Shown piece by piece: positions 37-18,569 of a stretch of 64,000 nt of DNA (position 1 is the stretch's first letter; each line of letters opens with the position of its first letter). The translations under genes were made by a program, and so were the position numbers. The DNA lies in assembly GCA_020161145.1 (NCBI GenBank), contig JAIUPQ010000004.1, positions 62,001-126,000 on the forward strand. The letters are read 5' to 3'. This stretch comes from Pseudomonadota bacterium. Its GTDB lineage: Bacteria; Pseudomonadota; Gammaproteobacteria; Burkholderiales; Burkholderiaceae_C. The notes below the pieces were generated by a model. It saw nothing but the letters and a program-made list of their open reading frames with translations, had not been told where the DNA came from and made no database searches.

Positions 37-1575
37 TTACCAGCGCGCCGGCACGCCCTGGGTGCCGGCCAGCACCGGCGCCAGCGCGCCGCTGGCCACC
101 AGGGCCGCCGCGCGCTCCATGTCGGGCGCCAGGTAGTGGTCGGTGGGCATGGGGGGCACCTGGGCGCGCAGCAGCGCGTGGGCCTGCTCCAGCGGCGCCG
201 AGCTCTTGAGCGGGCGCAGGAACTCGATGGCCTGGGCGGCGGCCAGCCACTCCACGGCCAGGATGTGCGTCACGTTGCGCACCATGGCCTGCAGGCGCCG
301 CGCGGCGAAGGTGGCCATGCTGACGTGGTCTTCCTGGTTGGCGCTGGTGGGCAGGCTGTCCACGCTGGCCGGGTGGGCCAGCGACTTGTTCTCGCTGGCC
401 AGCGCGGCGGCCGTCACGTGGGCAATCATGAAGCCGCTGTTGAGGCCGGCGTTGGCGGTCAGGAAGGCCGGCAGGCGCGAGACGCCCGTGTCGATCAGCA
501 TGGCGATGCGCCGCTCGGCGATGGCGCCCACCTCGGCAATGGCCACGGCCATGGCGTCGGCGGCCAGGGCCACCGGCTCGGCGTGGAAGTTGCCGCCCGA
601 AATCATGGCGCCGTCGTTGACCAGCACCAGCGGGTTGTCGGTGACCGCATTGGCCTCGCGCAGCAGCACGGTGGCGCAGTGGCGCAACTGGTCCAGGCAG
701 GCCCCCACCACCTGCGGCTGGCAGCGCAGGCAGTACGGGTCCTGCACACGGTCGTCGCCCTCGGCGTGGCTGGCGCGGATGGGGCTGCCCGCCAGCAGCG
801 CGCGGTAGACGGCGGCCACGTCGATCTGGCCCGGCTGGCCGCGCAGCGCGTGGATGCGGGCGTCGAACGGGCCGTCGCTGCCGCGTGCGGCGTCCACCGT
901 CAGCGCGCCGATGACCAGTGCGCTGTCCAGCACCGGCTCAAAGGCAAACAGCGCGTGCAGGGCCAGCGCCGTGCTGGTCTGCGTGCCGTTGATCAGCGCC
1001 AGGCCCTCTTTGGCCTCCAGCGCCAGCGGCGCCAGGCCGGCCGCCTGCAGCACCTCGCGCGCCGGGCGGCGGGCGCCGTCCACCAGAAACTCGCCCTCGC
1101 CCAGCAGCGCCAGCGTCATGTGCGACAGCGGCGCCAGGTCGCCCGAGGCGCCCACCGAGCCCTGGCTGGGCACGTAAGGCACCAGGCCGGCGTTGAAGGC
1201 TGCCAGCAGCGCGTCCACCACCACCTGGCGCACGCCCGAGGCGCCGCGCGCCAGGCTGGCCGCCTTGGTGGCCAGCATCAGCCGCACCACTGGCGGCGAC
1301 AGCGGCTCGCCCACGCCCACGCTGTGCGAGCGGATCAGGTTGAGCTGCAATAGCGCCAGGTCTTCGCGGCTGATACGCTGGTTGGCCAGCTTGCCAAAGC
1401 CGGTGTTGACGCCGTAGACGGCGGCATCGCCACTGGCCGCGGCCTGCACGATGGCGGCGCTGGCCGCGATGGCGGCCCGGGCTTCGGGCACCAGCGCCAG
1501 CTGCACGCCGCCGGCGTGGATGGCGCGCAGCTGCTCGCGCGTGATCGCGCCGGGGGTGAGGGTCAACGAGGTCAT
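37..1575 (-). CDS. hutH: Histidine ammonia-lyase
   Basis: HutH deaminates L-histidine to trans-urocanate, the first step of histidine utilisation, in the cytoplasm. The 512-aa product has the usual length for the family. It carries the Ala143-Ser144-Gly145 triad in [12 protein letters not shown], which cyclises to the electrophilic MIO cofactor. The open frame runs further upstream, but the ATG at 1575 is chosen because the HutH-typical N-terminus ([12 protein letters not shown]) begins there and AAGGA lies just upstream. Unusually, only 32 bp separate this start from the start of a divergent secreted-protein gene, so no separate promoter is obvious. The gene may depend on read-through from the hutU promoter. 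Identity is very secure. Confidence 0.97.
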
Positions 1576-1607
1576 GACGGAATCCTTGTGGTGATCGGAG
1601 GTGAAAG

Positions 1608-3511: not shown

Positions 3512-5176
<1,665 letters not shown>

Positions 5177-5206: not shown

Positions 5207-5235
5207 CTTTAACTTGTCTAGACAAGTTCATGCAA
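5207..5235 (-). promoter_or_regulatory. Probable hutU promoter
   Basis: Reading the minus strand, TTGCAT (5235-5230) and TTAAAG (5212-5207) are separated by exactly 17 bp. This fits a sigma-70 type promoter about 30 bp before the hutU GTG. The spacer is almost entirely filled by the palindromic operator at 5211-5228, as expected for direct repression. It is assigned by eye only. Confidence 0.55.
5211..5228. promoter_or_regulatory. Probable HutC operator (perfect 18-bp palindrome)
   Basis: AACTTGTCTAGACAAGTT is a perfect inverted repeat 35 bp upstream of hutU. GntR/HutC-family repressors bind short palindromes with TTGT...ACAA-type half sites, and hutC is encoded in this locus. Binding here would block the hutU promoter until urocanate relieves it. 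I saw only this one copy; none was found before hutC. Confidence 0.75.
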
Positions 5236-5261: not shown

Positions 5262-6725
5262 TCAGGTCATGAAGCCCACGTCCCGCGCGCCGCCAAACGC
5301 CGCCAGCGCGGGCAGCACCTCGGTCAGCTGGCCCTCGTCCAGCCCCCACCAGCGCAGCAGCGTGGCGGCGTATTGCGCCACGCCGGTGGTGGGCAGCCAG
5401 CGGCCCTGGCGCTCCCAGGGTTGCTCGCCGATGTCGTCGGGGCCGCCCAGCGCCAGCTCGGGGTGTTGGCCATAGGTGGCGCCGCCGCGCACGCCACCGC
5501 CGAAAACCAGTTGCAGATTGCCCCAGGCGTGGTCGGTGCCTAGCGACTGGTTGGGGGCAAAGGTGCGGCCGAAGTCCGAGGTGGTGAACAGCGTCACCGC
5601 ATCGGCGAGGCCGATGGCCTGCATGGCCGCATCGAAGGCGGCCACGGCTTGCGCCAGCTCGCCCAGCAGGTCGGCGTGCAGGCCGGCCAGCACGTCGTCG
5701 CGATCGACTTGCTGGGCGTGGGTGTCGAAGCGGTTCATCTGGGTGTAGAACAGCTGGCGGGCATCGCCGATCAGGTCGCGCGCGGCCACCATCTTGGCGA
5801 CCTGGTAGAGCTGGCGGCCCAGCGGCGAGGCGATGCGGCCGTCCTGCACCAGCGGCGCAAAAGCGCTGTCCACCGCAGCGAACAGGGGCAGATCGCCGGG
5901 CTTGGCGGCCACCGCGTCGCCCAGCAACGCCGAGATGGCAAAGGCCTCGCGCTGCGACTGGGCCAGCGCCTCGGCCACCGGGTTGGCCTGCGCCTGGCCG
6001 TACAGCGTGCGCAGCGCGGCGGCGCGGGCCGAGGCGGCGGCGTCGCGCTGGCGCCAGGCCTCGTTGCCCAGTTCGTAGACGCCGAACTTGTTGCCCGGGT
6101 CGGGCAGCACCAGCGCCTGGCGCAACCCGGCGTTGCCAAAGCGCGTGTTGCCGGCGCAGGAGATGACGGGCTGGCGGCTGTGCACGGCGTCGCTGGCGCG
6201 GCCGCCCCAGCCGCTGACCACGTCGGCGCGCACGTCGGCGCTGGCCCACAGGTGCTGCTGGTCGTTGTGCGACAGCAGGTTGTCGGGCACCAGCGCCGAG
6301 TTGGCCGGCATGGCGCGGAACTGGGCCTTGGTCAGCGGCTGCACCAGCGGCCCGACGTTGAACACCGGCGCCAGCCGCCCGCCCTGCCACAGCGGCAGCA
6401 GCGGCGCCAGCGCCGGATGCAGGCCGTAGTCGGTGCCGGCCAGTGCCCGCAGTTGCGCCTGCGGCAGCGCCAGCGGGCCGCGCACGCCGGCGTATTGGGC
6501 GTAGCGGCCGCCGTCGGTGGGCACCACGGTGTTGAGGCCGTCGTTGCCGCCGTCCAGGTGGATGCAGACCAGCGCGCGGTAGCCGCCGGTGCCGGCGGCG
6601 CGGGCACGGCCGCTGCCCAGGGTCAGCGGCAGGGCGGCGCCCAGGCCGCCCAGCGCACCCAGGGCCAGCGTGCTGCGGCGCAGGAAGTGGCGGCGGGCGG
6701 GGCAGGTCAAGGCAACAGGGTTCAT
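5262..6725 (-). CDS. DUF1501 family protein, Tat-exported
   Basis: The 487-aa product begins with a twin-arginine type leader (RRHFLRRSTLALGALGG) ending near ARAA, so a folded protein is probably exported to the periplasm. The body matches the DUF1501 family, with motifs VCIHLDGGNDGLNT near the N-terminus and FTTSDFGRTF near the C-terminus. This family is distantly related to the alkaline-phosphatase/sulfatase fold and its substrate is unknown. The start at 6725 puts the RR motif about ten residues in. It lies 10 nt downstream of a DUF1800 gene; these two families are commonly encoded side by side, so they likely work together. It is not a classical hut gene. Confidence 0.88.
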   Translation of the reverse strand: MNPVALTCPARRHFLRRSTLALGALGGLGAALPLTLGSGRARAAGTGGYRALVCIHLDGGNDGLNTVVPTDGGRYAQYAGVRGPLALPQAQLRALAGTDYGLHPALAPLLPLWQGGRLAPVFNVGPLVQPLTKAQFRAMPANSALVPDNLLSHNDQQHLWASADVRADVVSGWGGRASDAVHSRQPVISCAGNTRFGNAGLRQALVLPDPGNKFGVYELGNEAWRQRDAAASARAAALRTLYGQAQANPVAEALAQSQREAFAISALLGDAVAAKPGDLPLFAAVDSAFAPLVQDGRIASPLGRQLYQVAKMVAARDLIGDARQLFYTQMNRFDTHAQQVDRDDVLAGLHADLLGELAQAVAAFDAAMQAIGLADAVTLFTTSDFGRTFAPNQSLGTDHAWGNLQLVFGGGVRGGATYGQHPELALGGPDDIGEQPWERQGRWLPTTGVAQYAATLLRWWGLDEGQLTEVLPALAAFGGARDVGFMT

Positions 6726-6735
6726 GGCAACAGGC

Positions 6736-8526
6736 TCACTGCACGTGGAAGGCGGGGCTGGCAAACACCAGAAAGGCGGCTTGCTGCACGCGGGCGCGGC
6801 GCCACTGGGCTTCGTCGCCGCTGGCGGGCACGGCGGCCACGGCGGCCACGATGGGGTCGCGCGCGCTGGCCGGCAGCACGGCGCCGGTGGCCAGCCGCGC
6901 CAGGCGGTCCACCAGCGCGGCCGGGTCCTGTGCGTCGGCCTGCCAGGCGGTCAGATCGACGCGGGTGCCGGTGGCGCCGGGCACGTCCTGCGAGGCGGCG
7001 GAGCCGTTCCACATGAACAGGTAGGTCAGGTAGTTGAGCCGCGCCAGCCCGGTGTTGGCGTTGAGGATGCCGAACTCGGGCGCCCGCAGCCCGCTGCCGG
7101 GCAGCCGGTAGTCGGGCGGGTAGTAGTTGAAGACCGAGGGCGAGGCAAAGATGCGCTGGCGCACCAGCTCGCCCCACCAGTGGGTCAGCGCCTCGCCGTC
7201 GGTCTGGCCGTGCAGCGCGCGCAGCACGTGGGCGAACACCACGGCGGGCTCGCGCAGCTTGCCGTCCTGCACGCCGCGTGTGGCCGGGGTGCGGGCCTCG
7301 GTGTCCAGCAGCACGGCGGCCACGGTGGCGGCCAGATCGCCCGCCTGGCCGGTGCCGAAGGCCTGGCCATCGGCCGTGTGGCGGCCGGCGCTGAAGGCCT
7401 GGCCCACGCGCTGCACATAGCCGGCGCTGGGGTTGCTGGTGACCAGCTGGGCGATCAGGTGGCGGGCCAGGAAAGGCGGCAGGTTGGGGTGGGCCATCAC
7501 GCTGTCCAGCACGCGCTCCAGCGCCTCGGGCGCGGCGGTGCCGGCCGGCACGGTGACGCCGGAGAGCAGCGTGCGCTCGCTGGCGTCGCGCAGGCTGGTC
7601 AGCGGCACCATGTCGCCCTCGAGGTAGCGGCAGTTGGCGCCGCGCGGCCAGCAGCGGCCGTTGCTGCTCATGCCGCCGACCGGATAGGTCCAGCCGGTCA
7701 GCGCGTAGGCGTAGGCGCGCACGGTGTCGGTGCCGTAGGTGGGCTGGCAGCTGCCGCCCGCCCAGTCGCCGCCCGGGGTCAGCGCGCAAGGGCCGATGGT
7801 GAACAGCTGCAGCAGCTCGCGGGCGAAGTTCTCGTTGGGGGCCACCTTGTCGTTGTTGACGTGGCCCAGGTAGTCGCCCATCACGGGCGACAGCGCCACG
7901 CGGCGCAGCACGTCGCGGTAGTTGCCGAAGGCGCCCTCCAGCAGCTGGTTCTGGTAGCGGCGCAGGCCGTAGGTGCCACTGACCTCGCGCGAGCTGACCA
8001 CCAGCAGTTGCGACAGGGCGAACGCCACGCGCTGGCGCAACGGGTCGGGGCTGGCCACGGCGTGGCGGTAGAAGTCCCAGGTCACCGGGTCGCCCGACAG
8101 CCAGTCGCGCCGGCAGGTGGGGCTGGCGTGGGCGGGGTCGTTGCAGAAGTCGTTGCCGGTATAGCCCTGGTGCACGGCGCCGGTGCCACCCAGCGTGTAG
8201 CGCGAGACGGGCTGGCGCATCTGCCCGGCCACCCAGGCGGCGGCGGTCTGGCCGGTCATGGCCGTCAGCTCGGCCTCGTTGGCGCCAAAGCTGGCTTGCA
8301 GCGCCAACCGGTGGGCCTCGGGGGCGGTCAGCGTGACGGCCGTGGGTGGCGGTGGAGGCGGAGGCGGTGGTGGCGGCGGAGGCGTGCCGCCGGGCGGCGG
8401 GTCGGTGCCGGTGGGCGGGTCGCTGGCGGCGCCGCCACCGCCACAGCCCATCAGGGCGGCGGCCAGCGCCAGGGCAGGCAGCCAGCGCAGGAGGGGGGTC
8501 GGCGCGGGGGCGGGGTGGGGGTTCAC
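6736..8526 (-). CDS. DUF1800 family lipoprotein
   Basis: With the GTG start at 8526 the product is 596 aa. The N-terminus has a lipoprotein signal (hydrophobic run ending ALMGC), so the protein is probably anchored to a membrane. A low-complexity linker with 13 consecutive prolines, written with mixed proline codons, joins the lipid anchor to a DUF1800 domain. Recognisable blocks are FARELLQLFTIG, AYALTGWTY and FNYYPPDYRLPG. DUF1800 function is unknown, but it is typically paired with DUF1501, as here. The frame stays open upstream to 8622, so the exact start is uncertain; the chosen GTG gives a normal-length lipoprotein leader. Confidence 0.85.
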   Translation of the reverse strand: MNPHPAPAPTPLLRWLPALALAAALMGCGGGGAASDPPTGTDPPPGGTPPPPPPPPPPPPPTAVTLTAPEAHRLALQASFGANEAELTAMTGQTAAAWVAGQMRQPVSRYTLGGTGAVHQGYTGNDFCNDPAHASPTCRRDWLSGDPVTWDFYRHAVASPDPLRQRVAFALSQLLVVSSREVSGTYGLRRYQNQLLEGAFGNYRDVLRRVALSPVMGDYLGHVNNDKVAPNENFARELLQLFTIGPCALTPGGDWAGGSCQPTYGTDTVRAYAYALTGWTYPVGGMSSNGRCWPRGANCRYLEGDMVPLTSLRDASERTLLSGVTVPAGTAAPEALERVLDSVMAHPNLPPFLARHLIAQLVTSNPSAGYVQRVGQAFSAGRHTADGQAFGTGQAGDLAATVAAVLLDTEARTPATRGVQDGKLREPAVVFAHVLRALHGQTDGEALTHWWGELVRQRIFASPSVFNYYPPDYRLPGSGLRAPEFGILNANTGLARLNYLTYLFMWNGSAASQDVPGATGTRVDLTAWQADAQDPAALVDRLARLATGAVLPASARDPIVAAVAAVPASGDEAQWRRARVQQAAFLVFASPAFHVQ

Positions 8527-8654
8527 GGTGGGGTCTGGTTCCGAGCGTCCGCAACGGGGACGGCCTACCCGATATCGGCCGGTTGAGCCCATGCTTGACG
8601 CCCCCGATGTGAGCCGCTGCAACGCCGCGCCGGCGGCCTGGGTAGCATGGCGGC

Positions 8655-9380
8655 ATGGCCACCCCGTCCCGCCCCGCCGCGCCGCCGCCGCCTTATCAGC
8701 GCGTCAAACAACATGTCAAAGAAGGGTTGGCGCGCGGCGCCTGGCCAGCCGGCACGGCCCTGCCCAGCGAGGCCGAGCTGGTGGCGCAGTTCGGCGTCAG
8801 CCGCATGACGGTGAACCGCGCGCTGCGCGAGCTGCAAACCGAAGGCCTCATCCAGCGCGTGCAGGGCGTGGGCAGCTTTGCCGCGCCGCTGCACAAGGTG
8901 GCCTCCACGCTGCGGCTGCGCGATGTGCACGAAGAGATCGAGGCGCGTGGCCACCACCACATGGTGCGCGTGGTCAGCCAGGGCGCCGAGCCGGCGCCGC
9001 CCGCCGTGGCCGAGCCGCTGGGCGTTCCAGCGGGCAGCACGGTGTTCCACGTCGTGCTGCTGCACCACGAGAACGGCACCCCGCTGCAGGTGGAAGACCG
9101 CTGGGTCAACCCGGCCCTGGTGCCCGACTTCCTGGCCAACGACTTCAGCCAGACCACGCCCACCCAGGTGCTGTTTGCCCGCACCGTGCTGCATGCCGCG
9201 CAGTATGCTATCGAGGCGCTGCCTGCCGGCCGCGCGGAGGCGGCCCTGCTGGGCATGGAGCCCGGCGCCCCCTGTCTGGTCGTCTCGCGCCGCACCGAGG
9301 CGCGCGGCGGTGTCATCACCATTGCGCGGCTGACCCACCCGGGGGCGCGCTACCTGCTGCAAGGATCTTTTCAGCCATGA
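8655..9380 (+). CDS. hutC: Histidine utilisation repressor HutC (GntR family)
   Basis: The 241-aa protein has a GntR winged helix at about residues 15-80 (motif LPSEAELVAQFGVSRMTVNRAL) and a UTRA ligand-binding domain from about 95 to the end, the HutC subfamily architecture. In characterised HutC proteins urocanate binds the UTRA domain and releases DNA. It is the first gene of the plus-strand hut operon, overlaps the next gene by ATGA and is therefore probably co-transcribed. Its likely target is the palindrome at 5211-5228; no obvious copy lies before its own start. Confidence 0.95.
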   Translation: MATPSRPAAPPPPYQRVKQHVKEGLARGAWPAGTALPSEAELVAQFGVSRMTVNRALRELQTEGLIQRVQGVGSFAAPLHKVASTLRLRDVHEEIEARGHHHMVRVVSQGAEPAPPAVAEPLGVPAGSTVFHVVLLHHENGTPLQVEDRWVNPALVPDFLANDFSQTTPTQVLFARTVLHAAQYAIEALPAGRAEAALLGMEPGAPCLVVSRRTEARGGVITIARLTHPGARYLLQGSFQP

Positions 9381-10213
9381 ACACCCCCGGTTCCGACGCG
9401 GCTGCCCACGCCCGCGCCATCGTCACCCCCGAGTTGGTGCGCGCCTATGCCGAGGACGGCGTGGTCTGCCTGCGCGGCATCCTGCGCCCGCCCGAGGTGG
9501 CGCAGCTGGAGCGCGGCATCGCCGCCAACCTGGCCGCGCCCAGCCCGCGCGCCAAGGTGGCCAGCCGGCCCGACGACCCGGGGCAGTTCATCGAAGACTT
9601 CTGCAACTGGCAGGCCAATGCCGACTACGCCGCCGTCATCGGCGCCAGCGCGCTGGCCCATGCCGCCGCGTTGCTGATGCAAAGCGCCTCCGTGCGGCTC
9701 TATCACGACCACATGCTGACCAAGTCGGCTGGCACACAGCAGACCACGCCCTGGCACCAGGACCAGCCCTATTACAACGTCGAAGGGCGGCAGAACGCCA
9801 GCTTCTGGGTCCCGGTGGATGCGGTGCCGCGCGAGGCCACGCTGGAGTTCGTCGCCGGCTCGCACCGGGGCCCCTGGCTGATGCCGCGCAGCTTCATGTC
9901 CAACGAGGCCAAGTGGTTCCCCGAGGGCTCGCTGGCCGACCTGCCGGACGTGGAAGGCCAGCGTGCGGCCTTCGACATCCGGGGCTGGGCCATGGAGCCG
10001 GGCGATGCGGTGTGCTTCCACATGCTGACGCTGCACGCCAGCCGGGGCAGCGCTACGCGGCGGCGCGTCTGGAGCCTGCGCCTGCTGGGCGACGACATGC
10101 GCCACGCGCCGCGCCATTGGGTCACCTCGCCGGCCTTCCCCGGTCTGGCCGACGAACTGGCGGCCGGCGCGCCGCTGGACCATCCGCTCTTTCCGCTGCT
10201 GGTGACCGCATGA
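9377..10213 (+). CDS. Phytanoyl-CoA dioxygenase (PhyH) family protein
   Basis: The 278-aa product is a probable Fe(II)/2-oxoglutarate-dependent oxygenase. Candidate iron ligands are the His and Asp of WHQDQPYYN and the His of CFHMLTLHAS, with a downstream Arg-rich stretch that could bind 2-oxoglutarate. The ATG overlaps the hutC stop, and its own stop overlaps the hutD start, so it is tightly locked into the hut operon. PhyH is not part of the classical histidine pathway. A substrate related to histidine, for example a methylated or hydroxylated imidazole compound, is an inference from context only. Confidence 0.87.
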   Translation: MNTPGSDAAAHARAIVTPELVRAYAEDGVVCLRGILRPPEVAQLERGIAANLAAPSPRAKVASRPDDPGQFIEDFCNWQANADYAAVIGASALAHAAALLMQSASVRLYHDHMLTKSAGTQQTTPWHQDQPYYNVEGRQNASFWVPVDAVPREATLEFVAGSHRGPWLMPRSFMSNEAKWFPEGSLADLPDVEGQRAAFDIRGWAMEPGDAVCFHMLTLHASRGSATRRRVWSLRLLGDDMRHAPRHWVTSPAFPGLADELAAGAPLDHPLFPLLVTA

Positions 10214-10767
10214 ACCTCCATGCACTGGCCGACACCGCGCCGCAACCCTGGGCCAACGGCGGCGGCGTCACGCGCGAGCTGCTGGCCTGGCCCACCGCCG
10301 CCGCCTGGCAGGTGCGCGTGAGCGTGGCCGACATTGGCCAGGATGGCCCCTTCAGCGCCTACCCGGGCGTGACGCGCTGGTTTGCGGTGCTGGAGGGCGG
10401 GGGCGTGGCGCTGCACCTGCCCGCCGGCACCCGGCGGCTGACCACGGCCGATGCCGCGCTGTGCTTTGACGGTGCCGATGCGCCCGGCTGCACGCTGCTG
10501 GACGGCCCCACCCGCGACCTCAACCTGATGCTGCGCGGCGTGGACTCGGGCGGCCTGCAGGCGGCGGGCGCGGCCGATTGGGTCAGCCCGCGCCCCCACC
10601 GCGCCGTGTTCACCACCGCTGCGGCCACGCTGCACACGCCGCAGGGCAGCCATGCCCTGCCGACCATGAGCCTGGCCTGGCTGGCGGATGCCGCCCACCA
10701 ACCCTGGCGCCTGACCGGTCAGGGAGGCCAGGGCCGCGCCTGGTGGCTGGACTGGGCTTTCAGATAA
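10210..10767 (+). CDS. hutD: HutD family protein
   Basis: This 185-aa protein matches HutD/Ves: PWANGGGVTREL near the N-terminus, followed by RVSVADIGQDGPFSAYPG and the block LDGPTRDLNLM. HutD is a bicupin-fold protein found in hut operons. In Pseudomonas it has been proposed to limit over-induction of hut genes, perhaps by binding N-formimino-glutamate or urocanate; it has no proven catalytic activity. The ATG overlaps the stop of the PhyH gene. Presence of HutD strongly supports assignment of the whole plus-strand cluster to histidine use. Confidence 0.92.
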   Translation: MNLHALADTAPQPWANGGGVTRELLAWPTAAAWQVRVSVADIGQDGPFSAYPGVTRWFAVLEGGGVALHLPAGTRRLTTADAALCFDGADAPGCTLLDGPTRDLNLMLRGVDSGGLQAAGAADWVSPRPHRAVFTTAAATLHTPQGSHALPTMSLAWLADAAHQPWRLTGQGGQGRAWWLDWAFR

Positions 10768-10823
10768 TGGCATCCGTCCCCCGGGGGCACGGCCCTCGGC
10801 GTCTCACCTGAACCGGCGCGCCC

Positions 10824-12053
10824 ATGTCCGACTCCACCTCACTGCACGCCCTCACCCAGGCCCGCCTGGCCACCCTGGCCGGCGATGCCGGCTGGGGGCT
10901 GATCGACGACGGCGCCCTGCTGTGGCGCGGCGAGACCCTGCTGTGGGTGGGCGAGCGCGCCGGCCTGGCGACGGCCATCGCCGCCCACGGCGGCGAGGCC
11001 CAGGTGGCCGATGCCGGCGGCGCGCTGGTCACGCCGGGCCTCGTCGATGCCCACACCCATCTGGTCTACGGCGGCGACCGCTCGGCCGAGTTCGAGCTGC
11101 GGCTGGAGGGCGCCAGCTACGAGGCCATTGCCCGCGCTGGCGGCGGCATCCGCTCCACCGTGGCCGCCACCCGCGCGGCCAGCGAGGACGCGCTGTTTGC
11201 GCTGGCCGCCCGCCGCGCCCGCGCGCTGATCGCCGACGGCGTCACCACGCTGGAGATCAAGTCGGGCTATGGCCTCTCGGCCGAGGACGAGGCCCGCTGC
11301 CTGCGCGTGGCGCGGCGCATCGGGCGTGAGCTGCCGCTGACGGTGCGCACCACCTCGCTGGGCGCGCATGCGCTGCCGCCCGAGTTCGAGGGCCGGGCCG
11401 ACGACTACGTCAGTGCCGTCATCGGGTGGCTGCCGGATCAGCAGGCGGCGGGACTGGTCGATGCGGTGGATGCGTTCTGCGAGGGCATCGGCTTCACGCC
11501 GGCCCAGACCGAGCGCGTCTTTCAGGCCGCGCGGGCGCAGGGGCTGCCCGTCAAGCTGCACGCCGAGCAGCTGTCCAACCTCGAAGGCGCGGCGCTGGCG
11601 GCGCGCTACGGCGCGCTGTCGGCCGACCACCTGGAGTGGCTCAGCGACACCGGCATTGCCGCCATGAAGGCATCGGGGACCGTGGCCATGCTGCTGCCGG
11701 GCGCCTTCTACGCGCTGCGCGAAACCAGGCTGCCGCCCATCGCCGCGCTGCGGGCGGCCGGCGTGCCCATGGCGGTGGCCACCGACCACAACCCCGGCAC
11801 CTCGCCCACGCTGTCGCTGCGGCTGATGCTGAGCATGGCCTGCACGCTGTTTCGCCTCACGCCCGAAGAGGCGCTGCGCGGCGCCACCGTCCACGCCGCG
11901 CGCGCGCTGGGCCTGGCCGACCGGGGCCGGCTCGCGGCCGGCCAGCGCGCCGACCTGGCGCTGTGGGACGTGGGCCACCCGCGCGAGCTGGCCTACCTGT
12001 TCGGCCACAACCCGCTGATCGGCCGCATCCACGGGGGCCGCGATGACGCCTGA
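10824..12053 (+). CDS. hutI: Imidazolonepropionase
   Basis: HutI hydrolyses 4-imidazolone-5-propionate to N-formimino-L-glutamate, the third step of the pathway. The 409-aa product is an amidohydrolase-superfamily enzyme of normal length. It has the metal-binding [10 protein letters not shown] motif, the KLHAEQLSN block and the late DHNPGTSP motif supplying the catalytic Asp. It follows hutD after 56 nt and its 3' end overlaps the next gene by 11 nt. Confidence 0.97.
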
Positions 12054-12693
12054 GTTCTGGCTGCACCGCTGGGCCGCCGGCCAGACCGGCTGGCACCACG
12101 CCGCGCCGCAGCCGGCGCTGTGCGCCCATTGGCAGCGGCTGGCGCTGCGGCCCGGCGCACCCGTCTTCGTGCCGCTGTGCGGGGCCTCGGCCGACCTGGT
12201 CTGGCTGGCCGACCAAGGCCATCAGGTGCTGGGCGTGGAACTGGCCGAGGTGGCCGTGCAGCGCTTTTTTGCCGGGCAGGGGCTGGTGCCGGAAGTCGAA
12301 GGCAACCGCTGGCGCGCCGGCCCCTACACGCTGTGGTGCGGCGACTTGTTTGCGCTGCCGCCATCGCTGTGGGCCGGCTGCGCTGCCGTCTACGACCGTG
12401 CTGCCTGGGTCGCCCTGCCGCCTATCGAGCGCGCTGCCTATGCCCAGGCCGTCTTCGGGCCGCTGGCGCCCGGCGCGCAAGCCTTGTTGCTGACGCTGGA
12501 CTACGACCAGACGCAGCGCGCCGGCCCGCCGTTTGCCATGCCCGACGCCGAGGTGCTGGGCCACCTGGCCGGCGCCTGGCAGATCGAGCGCCTGGCGCGC
12601 GAAGACGTGCTGGCGCAAGAGCCCAAGTTCGCGCAGGCCGGCGTCACCGCACTGCACGAGTCCGTCTTCCACCTCACCCGCACCGCGCCATGA
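12043..12693 (+). CDS. tpm: Thiopurine S-methyltransferase-like enzyme
   Basis: The 216-aa protein fits the bacterial TPMT family: an N-terminal [14 protein letters not shown] block, the SAM-binding motif [24 protein letters not shown] (split here as VPLCGAS...GHQVLGVE) and [11 protein letters not shown] later. Known bacterial members methylate thiopurines and selenium or tellurium oxyanions. The start overlaps hutI by 11 nt and its stop overlaps the hutG start, so it is embedded in the hut operon. A role in histidine catabolism is not established. It could methylate an imidazole or thiol by-product, or be a passenger. Confidence 0.88.
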
Positions 12694-13490
12694 CCCACAC
12701 CCTCTACCCCGGCCGGGTGCCGCTGCTGGTCAGCCTGCCGCACTGTGGCACCGCCATCCCGCAGGATCTGCATGCCGCCTACGTGCCCGAGGCCCTCGCC
12801 GTGCCCGACACCGACTGGCATCTGGCCGAGGTCTACGCCTTTGCCCGCGAGCTGGGCGCCAGCGTCATCGTGCCCACCACCTCGCGCTACGTCATCGACC
12901 TCAATCGCCCCGGCGACAACGCGCCCATGTACCCCGGCGCCAACAACACCGAGCTGTGCCCCACGCGCAGCTTCACCGGCGCGCCGCTGTACCGCGACGG
13001 GCGCGCGCCCGATGCGGCCGAGATCGAGCGCCGCCGCGCCACCTGCTGGCAGCCTTACCACGACGCCTTGCAGGGCGAGCTGCAGCGGCTGCGCGCCGCC
13101 CATGGCCGCGCCGTGCTGTGGGACGGCCACAGCATCCAGAGCGCGCTGCCCTGGCTGTTCGAGGGTCGCCTGCCCGACCTCAACCTGGGCACCGCCAGCG
13201 GCGCCAGTTGCGCGCCCGAGCTGCGCGAGCGGCTGGCCGCCGTGCTGGCCGCCCAAAGCGCCTACAGCCAGGTGGTGGACGGCCGCTTCAAGGGCGGCCA
13301 CATCACCCGCCACTACGGCCAGCCGCAGGCCGGCATCCACGCCGTGCAGATGGAAATGGTCTTTGCCGCCTACATGACCGAAGAGGCCCCGCCCTGGCCG
13401 CTGGACGCGGCCAAGGTGGCGCGGCTGCAAGGCGTGCTGCGGGCGCTGCTGACCGAGTGCCTGGATTGGGCGAAGGCCGCTAAAGCCTGA
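12690..13490 (+). CDS. hutG: N-formylglutamate deformylase
   Basis: HutG hydrolyses N-formyl-L-glutamate to formate and glutamate, the last step of the five-step histidine pathway. The 266-aa sequence shows the N-formylglutamate amidohydrolase motifs SLPHCGTAIP near the N-terminus, YVIDLNRPGDN, LWDGHSIQSALP and FKGGHITRHYG, with His and Asp/Glu residues suited to zinc binding. Its ATG overlaps the stop of the TPMT-like gene by four bases. With hutF downstream, this defines the deiminase/deformylase branch and not the single-step formiminoglutamase branch. Confidence 0.95.
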   Translation: MTHTLYPGRVPLLVSLPHCGTAIPQDLHAAYVPEALAVPDTDWHLAEVYAFARELGASVIVPTTSRYVIDLNRPGDNAPMYPGANNTELCPTRSFTGAPLYRDGRAPDAAEIERRRATCWQPYHDALQGELQRLRAAHGRAVLWDGHSIQSALPWLFEGRLPDLNLGTASGASCAPELRERLAAVLAAQSAYSQVVDGRFKGGHITRHYGQPQAGIHAVQMEMVFAAYMTEEAPPWPLDAAKVARLQGVLRALLTECLDWAKAAKA

Positions 13491-13491
13491 C

Positions 13492-14013
13492 ATGCACACC
13501 TTGAGCGCCGCCGGACTGGTGCTGGAGCCGCTGTGCGAGCGGCATGCGGCGCTGATGTGGCCGTTGCTGTCGGATGCGAGGCTGCACATCCATCTGGACG
13601 AGTCTGCGCCGGCCTCGCTGGACGCGCTGCAACAGCGCTACCGCCGCTGGGAGGCCCATCGCGTCTCGCCCGACGGCCAGGCGCACTGGTTGAACTGGGT
13701 GATGCGCGTGCAAGACCATGCCGTCGGTTGGCTGCAGGCCACCGTGCAGCAGGACGGCAGCGCCTGGGTGGCTTACGTGGTGGGCACCGCGCACCAAGGC
13801 CAGGGCCTGGCCCGGCGCGGCGTGCAGGCGCTGCTGGACCATCTGCGCCGCGACCACCGCTGCACCCGCGCCCTGGCCCAGGTGGAGGCGGCCAACGGCC
13901 CCTCGATTGCCTTGCTGCAGGCGCTGGGGTTTGAGCCGATGGCTGTGGCGCCCCATCCGCTGACGCCGACGGAGCGGGTCTATGAACGACGCCTGGAATC
14001 TCCTCATGCCTGA
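13492..14013 (+). CDS. GNAT family N-acetyltransferase
   Basis: The 173-aa product has the GNAT fold signature: an N-terminal LEPLCERHAALMW strand-helix, and the acetyl-CoA binding motif A, V-V-G-T-A-H-Q-G-Q-G-L-A-R-R-G, at about residues 96-110. It is related to RimJ/RimL-type acetyltransferases. The start is one base after the hutG stop, so it belongs to the same transcription unit. Its substrate is unknown. Context suggests an amino acid or pathway intermediate, but this is inference. It is followed by a short coupled ORF and then hutF. Confidence 0.82.
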   Translation: MHTLSAAGLVLEPLCERHAALMWPLLSDARLHIHLDESAPASLDALQQRYRRWEAHRVSPDGQAHWLNWVMRVQDHAVGWLQATVQQDGSAWVAYVVGTAHQGQGLARRGVQALLDHLRRDHRCTRALAQVEAANGPSIALLQALGFEPMAVAPHPLTPTERVYERRLESPHA

Positions 14014-14080
14014 TCTGCCGACCGACCGCTTGGCCTGGCATCAAGGCACCCCGTGTGCACCAACCCACCCATCACCATGA
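14006..14080 (+). other. 24-codon ORF bridging GNAT gene and hutF
   Basis: This frame starts with an ATG inside the last codons of the acetyltransferase gene and its TGA overlaps the hutF ATG (ATGA). The peptide contains LAWHQGTPCAPTHP and matches nothing I know. The arrangement is what a translational-coupling leader would look like, but the length is within chance expectation. Confidence 0.25.
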
Positions 14081-15447
14081 CCACTCTGTACTGGACCCCT
14101 CACGCCTGGCTGCAAGGCCAGTGGCAACCCGACGTGCTGCTGGAAGCGGGCGCCGATGGCCGCTGGGCGGGCATCACGCCGCACACGCCTTGCCCCGAGC
14201 AGGCCCGGCGCCTGGCCGGCCCCGTGCTGCCGCCGCTGGTCAACGCCCACAGCCACGCCTTTCAGCGCGCGTTCGCGGGCCTGGCCGAGCGGCGCGCGTC
14301 GGTCAGCGACGACTTCTGGAGCTGGCGCGACCGCATGTACGGCGTGGCGCTGCGCATCACGCCAGCTCAGCTGCGCGCCATTGCCGCCCAGCTTTACCTG
14401 GAGCTGCTGCGCGGTGGCTACACCCAGACCTGCGAGTTCCACTACCTGCACCACCGCGAGGACGGCAGCCCCTATGCCGACCCGCTGGCCATGAGCTGGG
14501 CGCTGGCCGATGCCGCCGCCGACACCGGCATGGGCTTGACGGTGCTGCCCGTGCTCTACGCCCACGCCGGTTTTGCGCAGCCCCAGTTGCGTGACGACCA
14601 GCGCCGCTTCAAAACCGATGCCGACTGGGTCTGGCGCGCCAGCCAGGCCATCAACGCCGCTGCCCGCCCGCGCGTGCAGGCCGGCGTGGCGCTGCACTCG
14701 CTGCGCGCCGCGCATGCGGCGGACATCACCGCGCTGCGCGCCCTGGTGGGCGATGCCGAGGTGCCCATCCACATCCACATCAGCGAGCAGCCGCAGGAGG
14801 TGGCCGACTGCCTGGCCGCCCACGGCCAGCGGCCCATGCAGTGGCTGGCCCACCACCACCCGCTGGATGCGCGCTGGCAACTCGTCCACGCCACCCACAG
14901 CACGCCGGGCGAGATTGCCCAGGTGGCCGCCAGCGGCGCCGGCGTGGTCATCTGCCCCGGCACCGAAGCCAATCTGGGCGATGGCGTGGCCGACCTGCCG
15001 GGCTGGCTGGCGGCGGGGGTGCCACTGACCATAGGCTCCGACAGCCACGCCACGCGCGCCGTGATGGAGGAGTTGCGCTGGCTGGACTACGGCCAGCGCC
15101 TGGTGCTGGGCCGCCGCAACGTGGCCGCCGACCCGCCCGCCCAGCCTTCAACCGCTGCGCGCCTCTTTGACGCCATGCTGGCCGGCAGCGCCCGTGCGGC
15201 GGGGCTCTCAAGCTGGGGCTTGCAGCCGGGCGCCCGCGCCGACGCGCTGGTGCTGGACACGGCGGCCGACGGCCTGCTGGGCGTGCCCACCGACCACCTA
15301 CTGGACGCCGCCGTCTTCAGCGCCGACCCGCGCCCTTATGCGGCGGTGCTGGTGGGCGGCGAGGTGGTGTTGGAGCATGGCCGCCATGGGCGGCAAGCGG
15401 CGATCGCGAGCGAGTTCGAGGGGGTGATGCGGGCGCTGTTTGGCTGA
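14077..15447 (+). CDS. hutF: Formimidoylglutamate deiminase
   Basis: HutF deaminates N-formimino-L-glutamate to N-formyl-L-glutamate, which HutG then cleaves. The 456-aa amidohydrolase-superfamily protein shows the expected motifs: NAHSHAFQR (metal HxH), HIHISEQPQEV, HATHST and GSDSHATRAVMEELRWL. An upstream in-frame ATG exists at 14053, but the ATG at 14077 is preferred because the family N-terminus starts there and the overlap with the preceding mini-ORF suggests coupling. It is the last gene of the plus-strand hut operon. Confidence 0.95.
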   Translation: MTTLYWTPHAWLQGQWQPDVLLEAGADGRWAGITPHTPCPEQARRLAGPVLPPLVNAHSHAFQRAFAGLAERRASVSDDFWSWRDRMYGVALRITPAQLRAIAAQLYLELLRGGYTQTCEFHYLHHREDGSPYADPLAMSWALADAAADTGMGLTVLPVLYAHAGFAQPQLRDDQRRFKTDADWVWRASQAINAAARPRVQAGVALHSLRAAHAADITALRALVGDAEVPIHIHISEQPQEVADCLAAHGQRPMQWLAHHHPLDARWQLVHATHSTPGEIAQVAASGAGVVICPGTEANLGDGVADLPGWLAAGVPLTIGSDSHATRAVMEELRWLDYGQRLVLGRRNVAADPPAQPSTAARLFDAMLAGSARAAGLSSWGLQPGARADALVLDTAADGLLGVPTDHLLDAAVFSADPRPYAAVLVGGEVVLEHGRHGRQAAIASEFEGVMRALFG

Positions 15448-16971: not shown

Positions 16972-17093
16972 GGGGTGCTCCGGGTGAAGGCAAAGGGGTG
17001 TGCGGGTGACTATAAGCTTGCAGGATGCTGACGCCAGGCCCGCCATCGCGGGTACAGTGCCGCGCCACGGCAGCCCTGTGCAAAGGATGTTCG

Positions 17094-18569
17094 ATGCCCC
17101 CTGATGCCCCGATCTCTCCCCTGACGCCACGCGGGTGGGCGATGCACGTCGGCCTGGTGGCGGTGGCGGCGCTGCTGGCGGGTTGCACGGCCATGGCGCC
17201 CATCAATCCGCCCCTCGACGCGGTGCAGCCGCAGGACGGCTACCGGATATCGACGCTGCTGTCGCGCGAGCGCGGCAAGGAGCTCAACACGCTGGTGCTG
17301 CTGGCGTTCTCGGGCGGCGGCACGCGGGCGGCGGCGCTGTCGTATGGCGTGCTGGAAGAGTTGCGCCGCTACAAGGTGATCCGCGAGCGCGGCGAGCACA
17401 CGCTGCTGCAGGAGGTGGACATGATCTCAGGCGTGTCCGGCGGCAGCTTCACCGCGCTGGCCTACGCCTGGATGGGCGAGCGGATGTTCGATCAGTACGA
17501 ACACCGCTTTCTCAAGCGCGACGTGCAGGGCGAGCTGATCGGCCGCCTGCTCAGCCCCAAGTACTGGCCCGACCTGATGAGCGACCGCTGGGGCCGCTCG
17601 GAGATGGCGGCCGACTACTACGACGACATCTTGTTCGACGGTGCCACCTTCAACGACTTGCGTGCACTCAAGACCCCGGCCGTGCTGGTGTCGGGCACCG
17701 ACATCTCCACCGGCGCGCGCTTCGAGTTTTCGCAAGAGACGTTCGACCTGCTGTGCAGCGACGTGGGCGCGGTGCGGCTGGCGCGGGCGGCGGCCACCTC
17801 GTCGGCGGTGCCGGTGTTGTTGACGCCGGTGACCTTTCGCAACTATGGCGGGCGCTGTGGGTCGGCCCTGCCCAGTTGGGCTGCCGAGGTGGCCGACCCC
17901 GACAACCCGGTTCGGCCCGCTGGCCGCGCGCTGCTGCGCTACCGCGACATCAAGAGCCTGCAGGACAGCGAGAACCGCCCCTATCTGCACGTCATCGACG
18001 GCGGGGTGTCCGACAACCTGGGCTTGCGCGGCATCCTGGAGGCCTTCGAGGAGCTGGAGGTCAGCCCCACCTTCCGCCGCGAGACGGGGTTCGACCGCAT
18101 CCGCCACATCCTGATCATCGTCGTCAACTCGCGCTCGGCGCCCGAGTCCGCCTGGGACCGCTCGCCCACGCCGCCGGGCATGGTGGACCAGTTGCTGCAA
18201 TCGTCCAGCGTGCCCATCGACCACTACAGCTACGAGTCGGTGGAGTTGCTCAAGGACACGGTGTTCCGCTGGAAGACCCGCCGCGAGCTGGCCATGGTGC
18301 AGCTGCGCCTGAGCGGCGCCACCGAGGCCGAGGCGCGTGAGGCCGTGCCCGAGGTGACCTTCAATGCCATCGACATCAGCTTCGACGCCATCGCCGACCC
18401 CGAGGAGCGGCGCTACTTCATGACCCTGCCCACCACCTTCGTGTTGCCGCCCGAGGACGTGGACCGGCTGCGCGAGATCGGTGGCCGCCTGCTGCGCGAG
18501 TCGGCCGGATTCCAGATCCTGATCAAGCGGGGCATCCGCAAGGCGGAGCCGCCAGGCGTGCCGCCCTGA
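17094..18569 (+). CDS. Patatin-like phospholipase lipoprotein
   Basis: The 491-aa protein carries a lipoprotein signal with lipobox LLAGC (Cys31), so the mature form is probably anchored in the outer membrane facing the periplasm. The patatin domain shows the oxyanion loop SGGGTR (73-78), nucleophile Ser115 in GVSGGS, and the catalytic Asp302 in IDGGVSDN, the usual Ser-Asp dyad. Such proteins are lipid acyl hydrolases. The upstream in-frame ATG at 17025 would spoil the signal peptide, so 17094 is preferred. The gene ends 5 bp before the convergent mobA gene. Confidence 0.9.
   Translation: MPPDAPISPLTPRGWAMHVGLVAVAALLAGCTAMAPINPPLDAVQPQDGYRISTLLSRERGKELNTLVLLAFSGGGTRAAALSYGVLEELRRYKVIRERGEHTLLQEVDMISGVSGGSFTALAYAWMGERMFDQYEHRFLKRDVQGELIGRLLSPKYWPDLMSDRWGRSEMAADYYDDILFDGATFNDLRALKTPAVLVSGTDISTGARFEFSQETFDLLCSDVGAVRLARAAATSSAVPVLLTPVTFRNYGGRCGSALPSWAAEVADPDNPVRPAGRALLRYRDIKSLQDSENRPYLHVIDGGVSDNLGLRGILEAFEELEVSPTFRRETGFDRIRHILIIVVNSRSAPESAWDRSPTPPGMVDQLLQSSSVPIDHYSYESVELLKDTVFRWKTRRELAMVQLRLSGATEAEAREAVPEVTFNAIDISFDAIADPEERRYFMTLPTTFVLPPEDVDRLREIGGRLLRESAGFQILIKRGIRKAEPPGVPP

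Follow-up and report, generated by a model that had tools for sequence, protein, structure and literature searches.

Genes for histidine utilization (hut) form a textbook operon, yet a conserved oxygenase of the PhyH family recurs within it, or next to the gene for the repressor HutC and uptake genes, and no assigned role was found for this enzyme. We analysed one such case within a 64,000-nucleotide stretch of DNA from a Pseudomonadota bacterium of the Burkholderiaceae_C (contig JAIUPQ010000004.1, positions 62,001 to 126,000), hereafter referred to as the window. The phyH gene (9377..10213, + strand) is located in a tight plus-strand array of the order hutC-PhyH-hutD-hutI-TPMT-hutG-GNAT-hutF (8655-15447), and it overlaps both neighbours, by 4 bases with hutC and by 4 bases with hutD, as the sequence-only reading of this DNA had noted. 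Comparison with other genomes indicates that PhyH is very probably linked in function to histidine compounds. As to its role, we tentatively propose that PhyH acts on a modified or imported histidine compound and thereby feeds the hut pathway, a proposal that stands somewhat short of probable.

The association was examined in a sample of 299 genomes of the family, the window's own genome included, with orthologues defined as copies of at least 57% identity and counted from search rows. PhyH matches at E <= 1e-10 were detected in 52 of the 299 genomes and orthologues in 41, own included. The gene was located at hut genes in 23 of the 41 orthologue-bearing genomes (own included), that is, in 22 of the 40 others; for 16 of the 23 this was seen in short loci, the window among them, and for 7 after fetching flanks of about 7-8 kb where the contig allowed. 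Co-location in 22 of 40 genomes by chance is negligible if a rate of 1% per genome is assumed, with the reservation that related genomes are non-independent. The remaining family orthologues include one genome (G162) with a hutF-like gene only, at a distance of about 7.4 kb, four on short contigs and one (G261) that was left unfetched. In the window's own genome (3.5 Mb in 13 contigs), a single match to PF05721 was detected. Within the genus, hutI was found in 14 of 16 genomes. PhyH was not found in 12 hut loci of the same genus, 9 of which show both hutC and hutD; in two of these 12 loci (L186, L188) fewer hut genes are visible, and a third (L193) is a contig of 3.8 kb. The presence of PhyH at hut genes is thus patchy yet recurrent, in several lineages and layouts.

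The neighbours of PhyH were then scored within 10 kb in a set of named loci, the best 80 of at least 579 relatives, many close relatives being among them. At least two hut genes besides hutC were present in 35 of the 80 loci, in 23 of those no more than 400 bp from PhyH. The gene for a binding protein of the HisJ or lysine/arginine/ornithine (LAO) type was found together with hutC in 19 loci and alone in 1, and one locus (L078) carries hutC next to PhyH with no other partner. The order hutC, then phyH, then hutD is that of the Rubrivivax, Aquabacterium and Ideonella type and of the window, and the Acidovorax order is transporter genes-phyH-hutD. Elsewhere phyH is located between hutH and hutU (L156), after hutH (L157) or after hutU (L155). 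In Halomonas (L042) it is downstream of hutH, behind a putative transporter gene; the label 'ArcD-like' comes from a paralogue that scores weakly (30.8 of 650 bits), and the gene beside phyH itself is without NCBIfam hit. A counterpart of the membrane-protein gene situated ahead of phyH in the Halomonas cluster was found in 2 of the 80 loci. Two side observations concern these layouts: in one locus (L268) PhyH is encoded twice, once inside the hut cluster and once at its edge beyond hutC, the two copies having 68% and 37% identity to that of the window; and two loci (L050 and L072) read hutC-phyH-hutD-hutG, with no hutI match between hutD and hutG.

In wider samples PhyH was detected at E <= 1e-40 in 11 of 369 genomes of the class and in 32 of 398 genomes of the phylum, own genome included in both counts. 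From these a further set of 29 loci was assembled, consisting of 28 from the class and phylum samples (4 at 60-68% identity and 24 at 38-47%) plus one family locus (G142) taken again. Two of them are hut loci (L254 and L268), one has a hutH-like gene only (L276), one a binding protein with HutC and one a binding protein only, and 3 have incomplete flanks. HutC neighbours of PhyH persist down to about 41% identity. In L276 (8261-11684), a PhyH of 36% identity has as neighbours a LysR-type regulator and a gene resembling histidine ammonia-lyase that borders the HutH models (528.6 of 524 bits for one, 528 of 539.15 bits for another).

A quick tree of 112 PhyH copies was used to trace the association. 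The label 'hut' was assigned where one hut gene was present (in L160 part of a hutF-like gene only), and L108 was labelled orphan though a binding protein is present. With these labels 12 changes are required on the tree, 6 of them imposed by branches of strong support, indicating that the link between hut and PhyH has been gained or lost repeatedly. On a six-gene hut tree of 30 loci with midpoint root, the window falls outside the PhyH-bearing group and also outside the members of its own genus without PhyH. The window PhyH may have a common origin with the Rubrivivax hutC-phyH-hutD type; neither the PhyH tree nor the six-gene hut tree settles this.

The regions upstream of phyH were scanned for HutC-type operators. 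In L103 phyH opens the array phyH-hutD-hutI-hutG-hutF, and the sequence AGTTGTCTATACAAGT with 0 mismatches is located just upstream. In L264, at 41% identity, TGTATATACA was found at 8176 between phyH and the divergent gene for a true HutC (249.5 bits, cut-off 220), with 2 mismatches to the consensus. For comparison, L151 also reaches 2 mismatches with a non-palindromic site, and 7 of 660 random windows reach 2. No convincing HutC-type operator was found upstream of orphan PhyH genes, the best being L151 (2 mismatches) and L064 (3). As judged from these sites, PhyH would be under HutC control at least sometimes. For most hut loci, a hut promoter further upstream would be expected to drive phyH. 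Of the HutC regulon of Proteobacteria, the genes hutC, hutD, hutI, hutG, hutF, hutH and hutU are present in the window together with an operator of the expected type. A comparative study of this regulon gives transporters and HutD as its extra members, and the word 'dioxygenase' is absent from its main text (PMC5343134).

A second setting was observed in Burkholderia, in which a binding-protein gene and phyH are adjacent and a true HutC (299.8 bits) is encoded alongside; one genome (G989) has three HutC proteins above the cut-off, one of them beside the binding-protein gene and phyH. The best match of the Burkholderia binding protein is the histidine-binding protein 1hpb (270.2 bits), and lysine/arginine/ornithine binders follow it closely. 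Here PhyH keeps company with a binding protein and HutC but not with hut enzyme genes, which suggests an imported substrate. In Burkholderia HisJMPQ has been listed as a predicted HutC target (PMC5343134). Upstream of the binding-protein gene, 20 of 22 Burkholderia loci have a palindrome with the core GTCTAGAC but different flanks, versus 29 of 2200 random windows, a comparison that is partly circular because the palindrome consensus was drawn from the same loci, while the background windows may hit the site itself. The HutC paralogue of Burkholderia may perhaps have an operator specificity of its own. In L053, L084, G989 and other Burkholderia loci the upstream palindrome reads GC[AG]GTCTAGACTGC, the core of the HutC operator with changed flanks.

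A third setting relates PhyH to quaternary amines. In L254 (6754-9241), at 42% identity, phyH is followed by an MTTB gene of the same orientation, which begins about 94 bases on if its start is the methionine of MARSRGG, and hutU-hutI-hutH, all coding for ordinary enzymes, are divergent from phyH. In L033, L073, L079, L091 and L094, PhyH is located in choline/glycine betaine clusters with genes for MTTB, corrinoid activator, BetA and BADH. An FA_hydroxylase gene precedes phyH in L073 and a relative of it is present in L079; a choline-type ABC gene lies near PhyH in L091. Genes for MTTB, corrinoid activator and DUF1638, known from the betaine demethylation clusters of the MttB superfamily (MtgB, MtpB and MtcB), are also near several PhyH relatives; MTTB stands together with hut enzyme genes in L254, the only such case among the fetched loci. 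Gene sets of this kind have been described for glycine betaine demethylation (PMC12478193), and enzymes of the MttB family demethylate glycine betaine, proline betaine or carnitine (PMC8604678).

The PhyH protein of the window (PF05721, E=2e-19, 71.1 bits with a cut-off of 22) shares 64-74% identity with 40 relatives, including those of Legionella, Halomonas and Burkholderiales. In the alignment of these 41 sequences H127, D129, H220 and R228-R230 are invariant, and the triad could be aligned to that of MysH. By the pattern of the PhyH family, H127, D129 and H220 would be the iron ligands. The structural model has a predicted local distance difference test (pLDDT) score of 87.3, with residues 170-185, a loop for the most part conserved in the alignment, below 50, and its best Foldseek matches are MysH, SnoK and SnoN. 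By metal-ligand pattern and modelled fold, PhyH is predicted to be an Fe(II)/2-oxoglutarate dioxygenase. MysH, from the biosynthesis of mycosporine-like amino acids, is the closest solved structure by both profile (E=3.2e-35) and fold (E=1.5e-21), but the identity in the fold search is 26% and PhyH sits in hut clusters. MysH has been predicted to hydroxylate an attached glycine so that the nitrogen is freed (PMC10510106). The PhyH-type fold is also common to EctD, the leucine hydroxylase GriE and the proline hydroxylase H11, at 14-19% identity. The EctD model was absent among the NCBIfam hits of PhyH, the sole hit at E <= 0.001 being NF045813 with 22.3 of 550 bits, far below its cut-off.

Under the proposal that PhyH acts on a modified or imported histidine compound, a histidine derivative that HutH cannot use directly would be imported, and PhyH would convert it to histidine or urocanate, on which the ordinary hut enzymes could then act. 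PhyH might hydroxylate a carbon next to nitrogen, upon which the C-N bond would break, and the likeliest substrates would be hercynine (histidine betaine) or a methylhistidine. As ordinary HutU, HutI and HutH are encoded beside PhyH, the product should be histidine or urocanate rather than a thio-compound. A branch for ergothioneine through thiourocanate was rejected: the HutU proteins of the window, L254, L042 and L056 exceed the HutU cut-off and fall short of those of both thiourocanate models. N-methylated histidine is preferred as the intersection of the contexts, which have histidine compounds as their shared theme and, in one branch, quaternary amines as well; that the substrate is specifically an N-methylated histidine is nevertheless somewhat doubtful. 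Rather unlikely as a whole, but the most explicit form of the proposal, is a new branch of histidine catabolism in which PhyH would oxidatively demethylate histidine betaine or N-methylhistidine, in parallel to corrinoid-dependent demethylation of the MttB type; in Burkholderia the enzyme would come with its own HisJ/LAO-type binding protein and with a HutC paralogue whose operator has changed. If PhyH opens methylated histidines to the hut pathway, this would explain bacterial use of histidine betaine or of the methylhistidines of animal protein, and PhyH would represent a new demethylase chemistry. No paper linking PhyH to histidine catabolism was found among the matches listed in the open-licence literature, where the whole-word query 'urocan', which cannot match 'urocanate', was weak; open literature on hercynine, methylhistidine and Acidovorax likewise gave nothing on a PhyH enzyme among the matches listed. 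The operon is of a familiar type and includes an enzyme of an uncharacterised family, which the analysis suggests carries out a step in histidine use that has yet to be described.

Several observations weigh against this proposal. In 12 of the 40 other family genomes with an orthologue, no hut gene was found near PhyH within flanks of about 7-8 kb. None of the sought partners was present in 14 of the 80 named loci, 10 with full and 4 with incomplete flanks. In the further set, mostly of 38-47% identity, 21 of the 29 loci were scored 'none', two of which (L257 and L264) have a true HutC within 4 kb. Other neighbours of PhyH are varied and include RdgC, a RadA-like protein, seryl-tRNA synthetase, DHO_dh and M20 peptidases. 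The window PhyH groups with orphan copies on the quick tree, with modest support (SH-aLRT, the Shimodaira-Hasegawa-like approximate likelihood ratio test, 86; open fork), and on this grouping the place of phyH in the window operon may be recent. A convincing operator upstream of phyH was found only in L103 and L264 of the 31 regions scanned. The sole operator of the window (5212-5227) adjoins hutU and is parted from hutC by a DUF1501-DUF1800 gene pair; the 300 bp before hutC have no match with fewer than 6 mismatches to the 12-base consensus. As this gene pair separates operator and hutC, urocanate may no longer control the hutC-hutF operon of the window, or the operon may be read from a different promoter. 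MTTB was found in 9 of the 135 fetched loci, with hut genes too in one of those 9, L254, so that the MTTB link may reflect glycine betaine only. Finally, the binding protein of the Burkholderia locus L053 passes only the lysine/arginine/ornithine model (264.7 bits, cut-off 256.35); the HisJ model gives a higher score, 283.5 bits, that is still under its own cut-off of 459. The Burkholderia protein could also be a lysine/arginine/ornithine binder.

Other functions were weighed for PhyH. It might hydroxylate histidine itself or a hut intermediate such as urocanate or imidazolonepropionate, either diverting it or making a product of other use. The close linkage to hut, the invariant active-site motif and the presence of free amino-acid hydroxylases (GriE and the proline hydroxylase H11) and EctD among the fold relatives all agree with such a reaction, but PhyH is missing from the 12 same-genus hut loci, no constant follow-on enzyme was seen travelling with it, and its occurrence with binding protein and HutC in the absence of hut enzyme genes suggests that the substrate comes from outside; we regard direct hydroxylation as doubtful. 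A clean-up role, in which PhyH would dispose of some damaged or toxic by-product that arises from histidine flux and supply no new substrate, would suit a gene of patchy but recurrent presence that is inserted singly at many places of the operon. The Burkholderia arrangement, with uptake protein and a HutC copy of its own, fits uptake better, and a repair role appears unlikely. PhyH could also oxygenate quaternary amines in general, glycine betaine among them, or else cationic amino acids, its hut links being by-products of frequent movement. Many PhyH loci are orphans, MTTB lies within 8 of the 80 named loci, 5 of them choline/betaine clusters, and the Burkholderia binding protein passes a lysine/arginine/ornithine model. 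Such a general function is, however, distinctly unlikely in view of the 35 plus 19 of 80 loci linked to hut or HutC, the HutC-type operators directly upstream of phyH in L103 and L264, and the persistence of HutC neighbours in distant relatives.

The sequence-only reading had gone further and joined PhyH, the TPMT-like enzyme and the GNAT enzyme into one possible undescribed side branch, in which oxygenation, methylation and acetylation would process imidazole compounds. Its description of the locus was borne out: coordinates and family models agree that three extra enzyme genes are tightly embedded among hutC-hutD-hutI-hutG-hutF, the TPMT gene overlapping hutI by 11 bases and hutG by 4 bases, and the GNAT gene starting one base past the end of hutG. 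This packing speaks for a common branch, and an S-methyltransferase in it is not absurd, since a HutU-like enzyme with its own NCBIfam model (NF058531) is recognised to take S-methylated thiourocanate. The HutU of the window is, however, an ordinary enzyme, and TPMT and GNAT were found in 0 of the 135 fetched loci and in 0 of the 12 same-genus hut loci, 10 of which show hutI, hutG and hutF, the expected site of both genes. Nor were hut genes found near other TPMT loci (0 of 32) or other GNAT loci (0 of 25), with flanks of about 1.5 kb. By its models a standard member of its protein family, TPMT is rare in the bacterial family: with the own genome counted, 4 of 200 genomes match at E <= 1e-20. 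Across the order, 38 of 300 match at E <= 1e-30, the own genome again among them. The best relative of GNAT in the 200 family genomes has 46% identity. As the two genes do not recur near hut, the three-gene branch was rejected and a joint pathway of this kind is highly improbable. From their distribution, TPMT and GNAT are probably passengers of one operon with no sign of a function in common with hut, and they may be co-expressed with it. With PhyH co-located with hut beyond chance in 22 of 40 genomes, and TPMT and GNAT without recurrence, a survey of relatives upholds the sequence-only reading for the first gene only: a side branch of one enzyme remains plausible, whereas for the other two only sporadic occurrence was seen.

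The other genes of the hut locus were assigned with family models. Scores exceed the NCBIfam equivalog cut-offs for HutC, HutI, HutG and HutF and the Pfam cut-offs for PhyH, HutD and GNAT; for TPMT both kinds of cut-off are exceeded. On the plus strand, hutC (8655..9380) encodes the repressor (TIGR02018, 272.2 bits, cut-off 220), and after phyH come hutD (10210..10767; PF05962) and hutI (10824..12053) for imidazolonepropionase (TIGR01224, 447.7 bits, cut-off 298.15). The gene at 12043..12693 codes for a TPMT-family S-methyltransferase (NF009732, 237.5 bits, cut-off 213; TIGR03840, 224.6 bits, cut-off 223.2). It is followed by hutG (12690..13490) for N-formylglutamate deformylase (TIGR02017, 352.9 bits, cut-off 278.75), the GNAT acetyltransferase gene (13492..14013; PF13302 and PF00583, with no NCBIfam model above cut-off) and hutF for formimidoylglutamate deiminase (TIGR02022, 496.5 bits, cut-off 413.05), which starts at GTG 14053 or ATG 14077 and extends to 15447.

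Divergent from this array, on the minus strand, and not named in the sequence-only reading of it, are hutH (37..1578) for histidine ammonia-lyase (TIGR01225, 673.5 bits, cut-off 539.15; PF00221), identified in the own-genome search, and hutU (3512..5176) for ordinary urocanate hydratase (TIGR01228, 963.8 bits, cut-off 375). Between them a DUF4185 gene (1608-2786, +) lies on the strand opposite to both. The HutC-type operator at 5212..5227 is the perfect palindrome ACTTGTCTAGACAAGT, the sole match in the window at 3 or fewer mismatches; an operator of the form TGTA-N2-TACA was not found in the window. In relatives, a HutC-type palindrome of the same kind is located between hutU and hutC. The gene pair that occupies this interval in the window (8622-5262, -) consists of the DUF1501 gene (5262..6764; PF07394), for which no match was found in the 12 same-genus hut loci, and the DUF1800 gene (6736..8622; PF08811). 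Downstream of the array, a patatin-like phospholipase gene (PF01734) is located at 17025-18569 on the plus strand.

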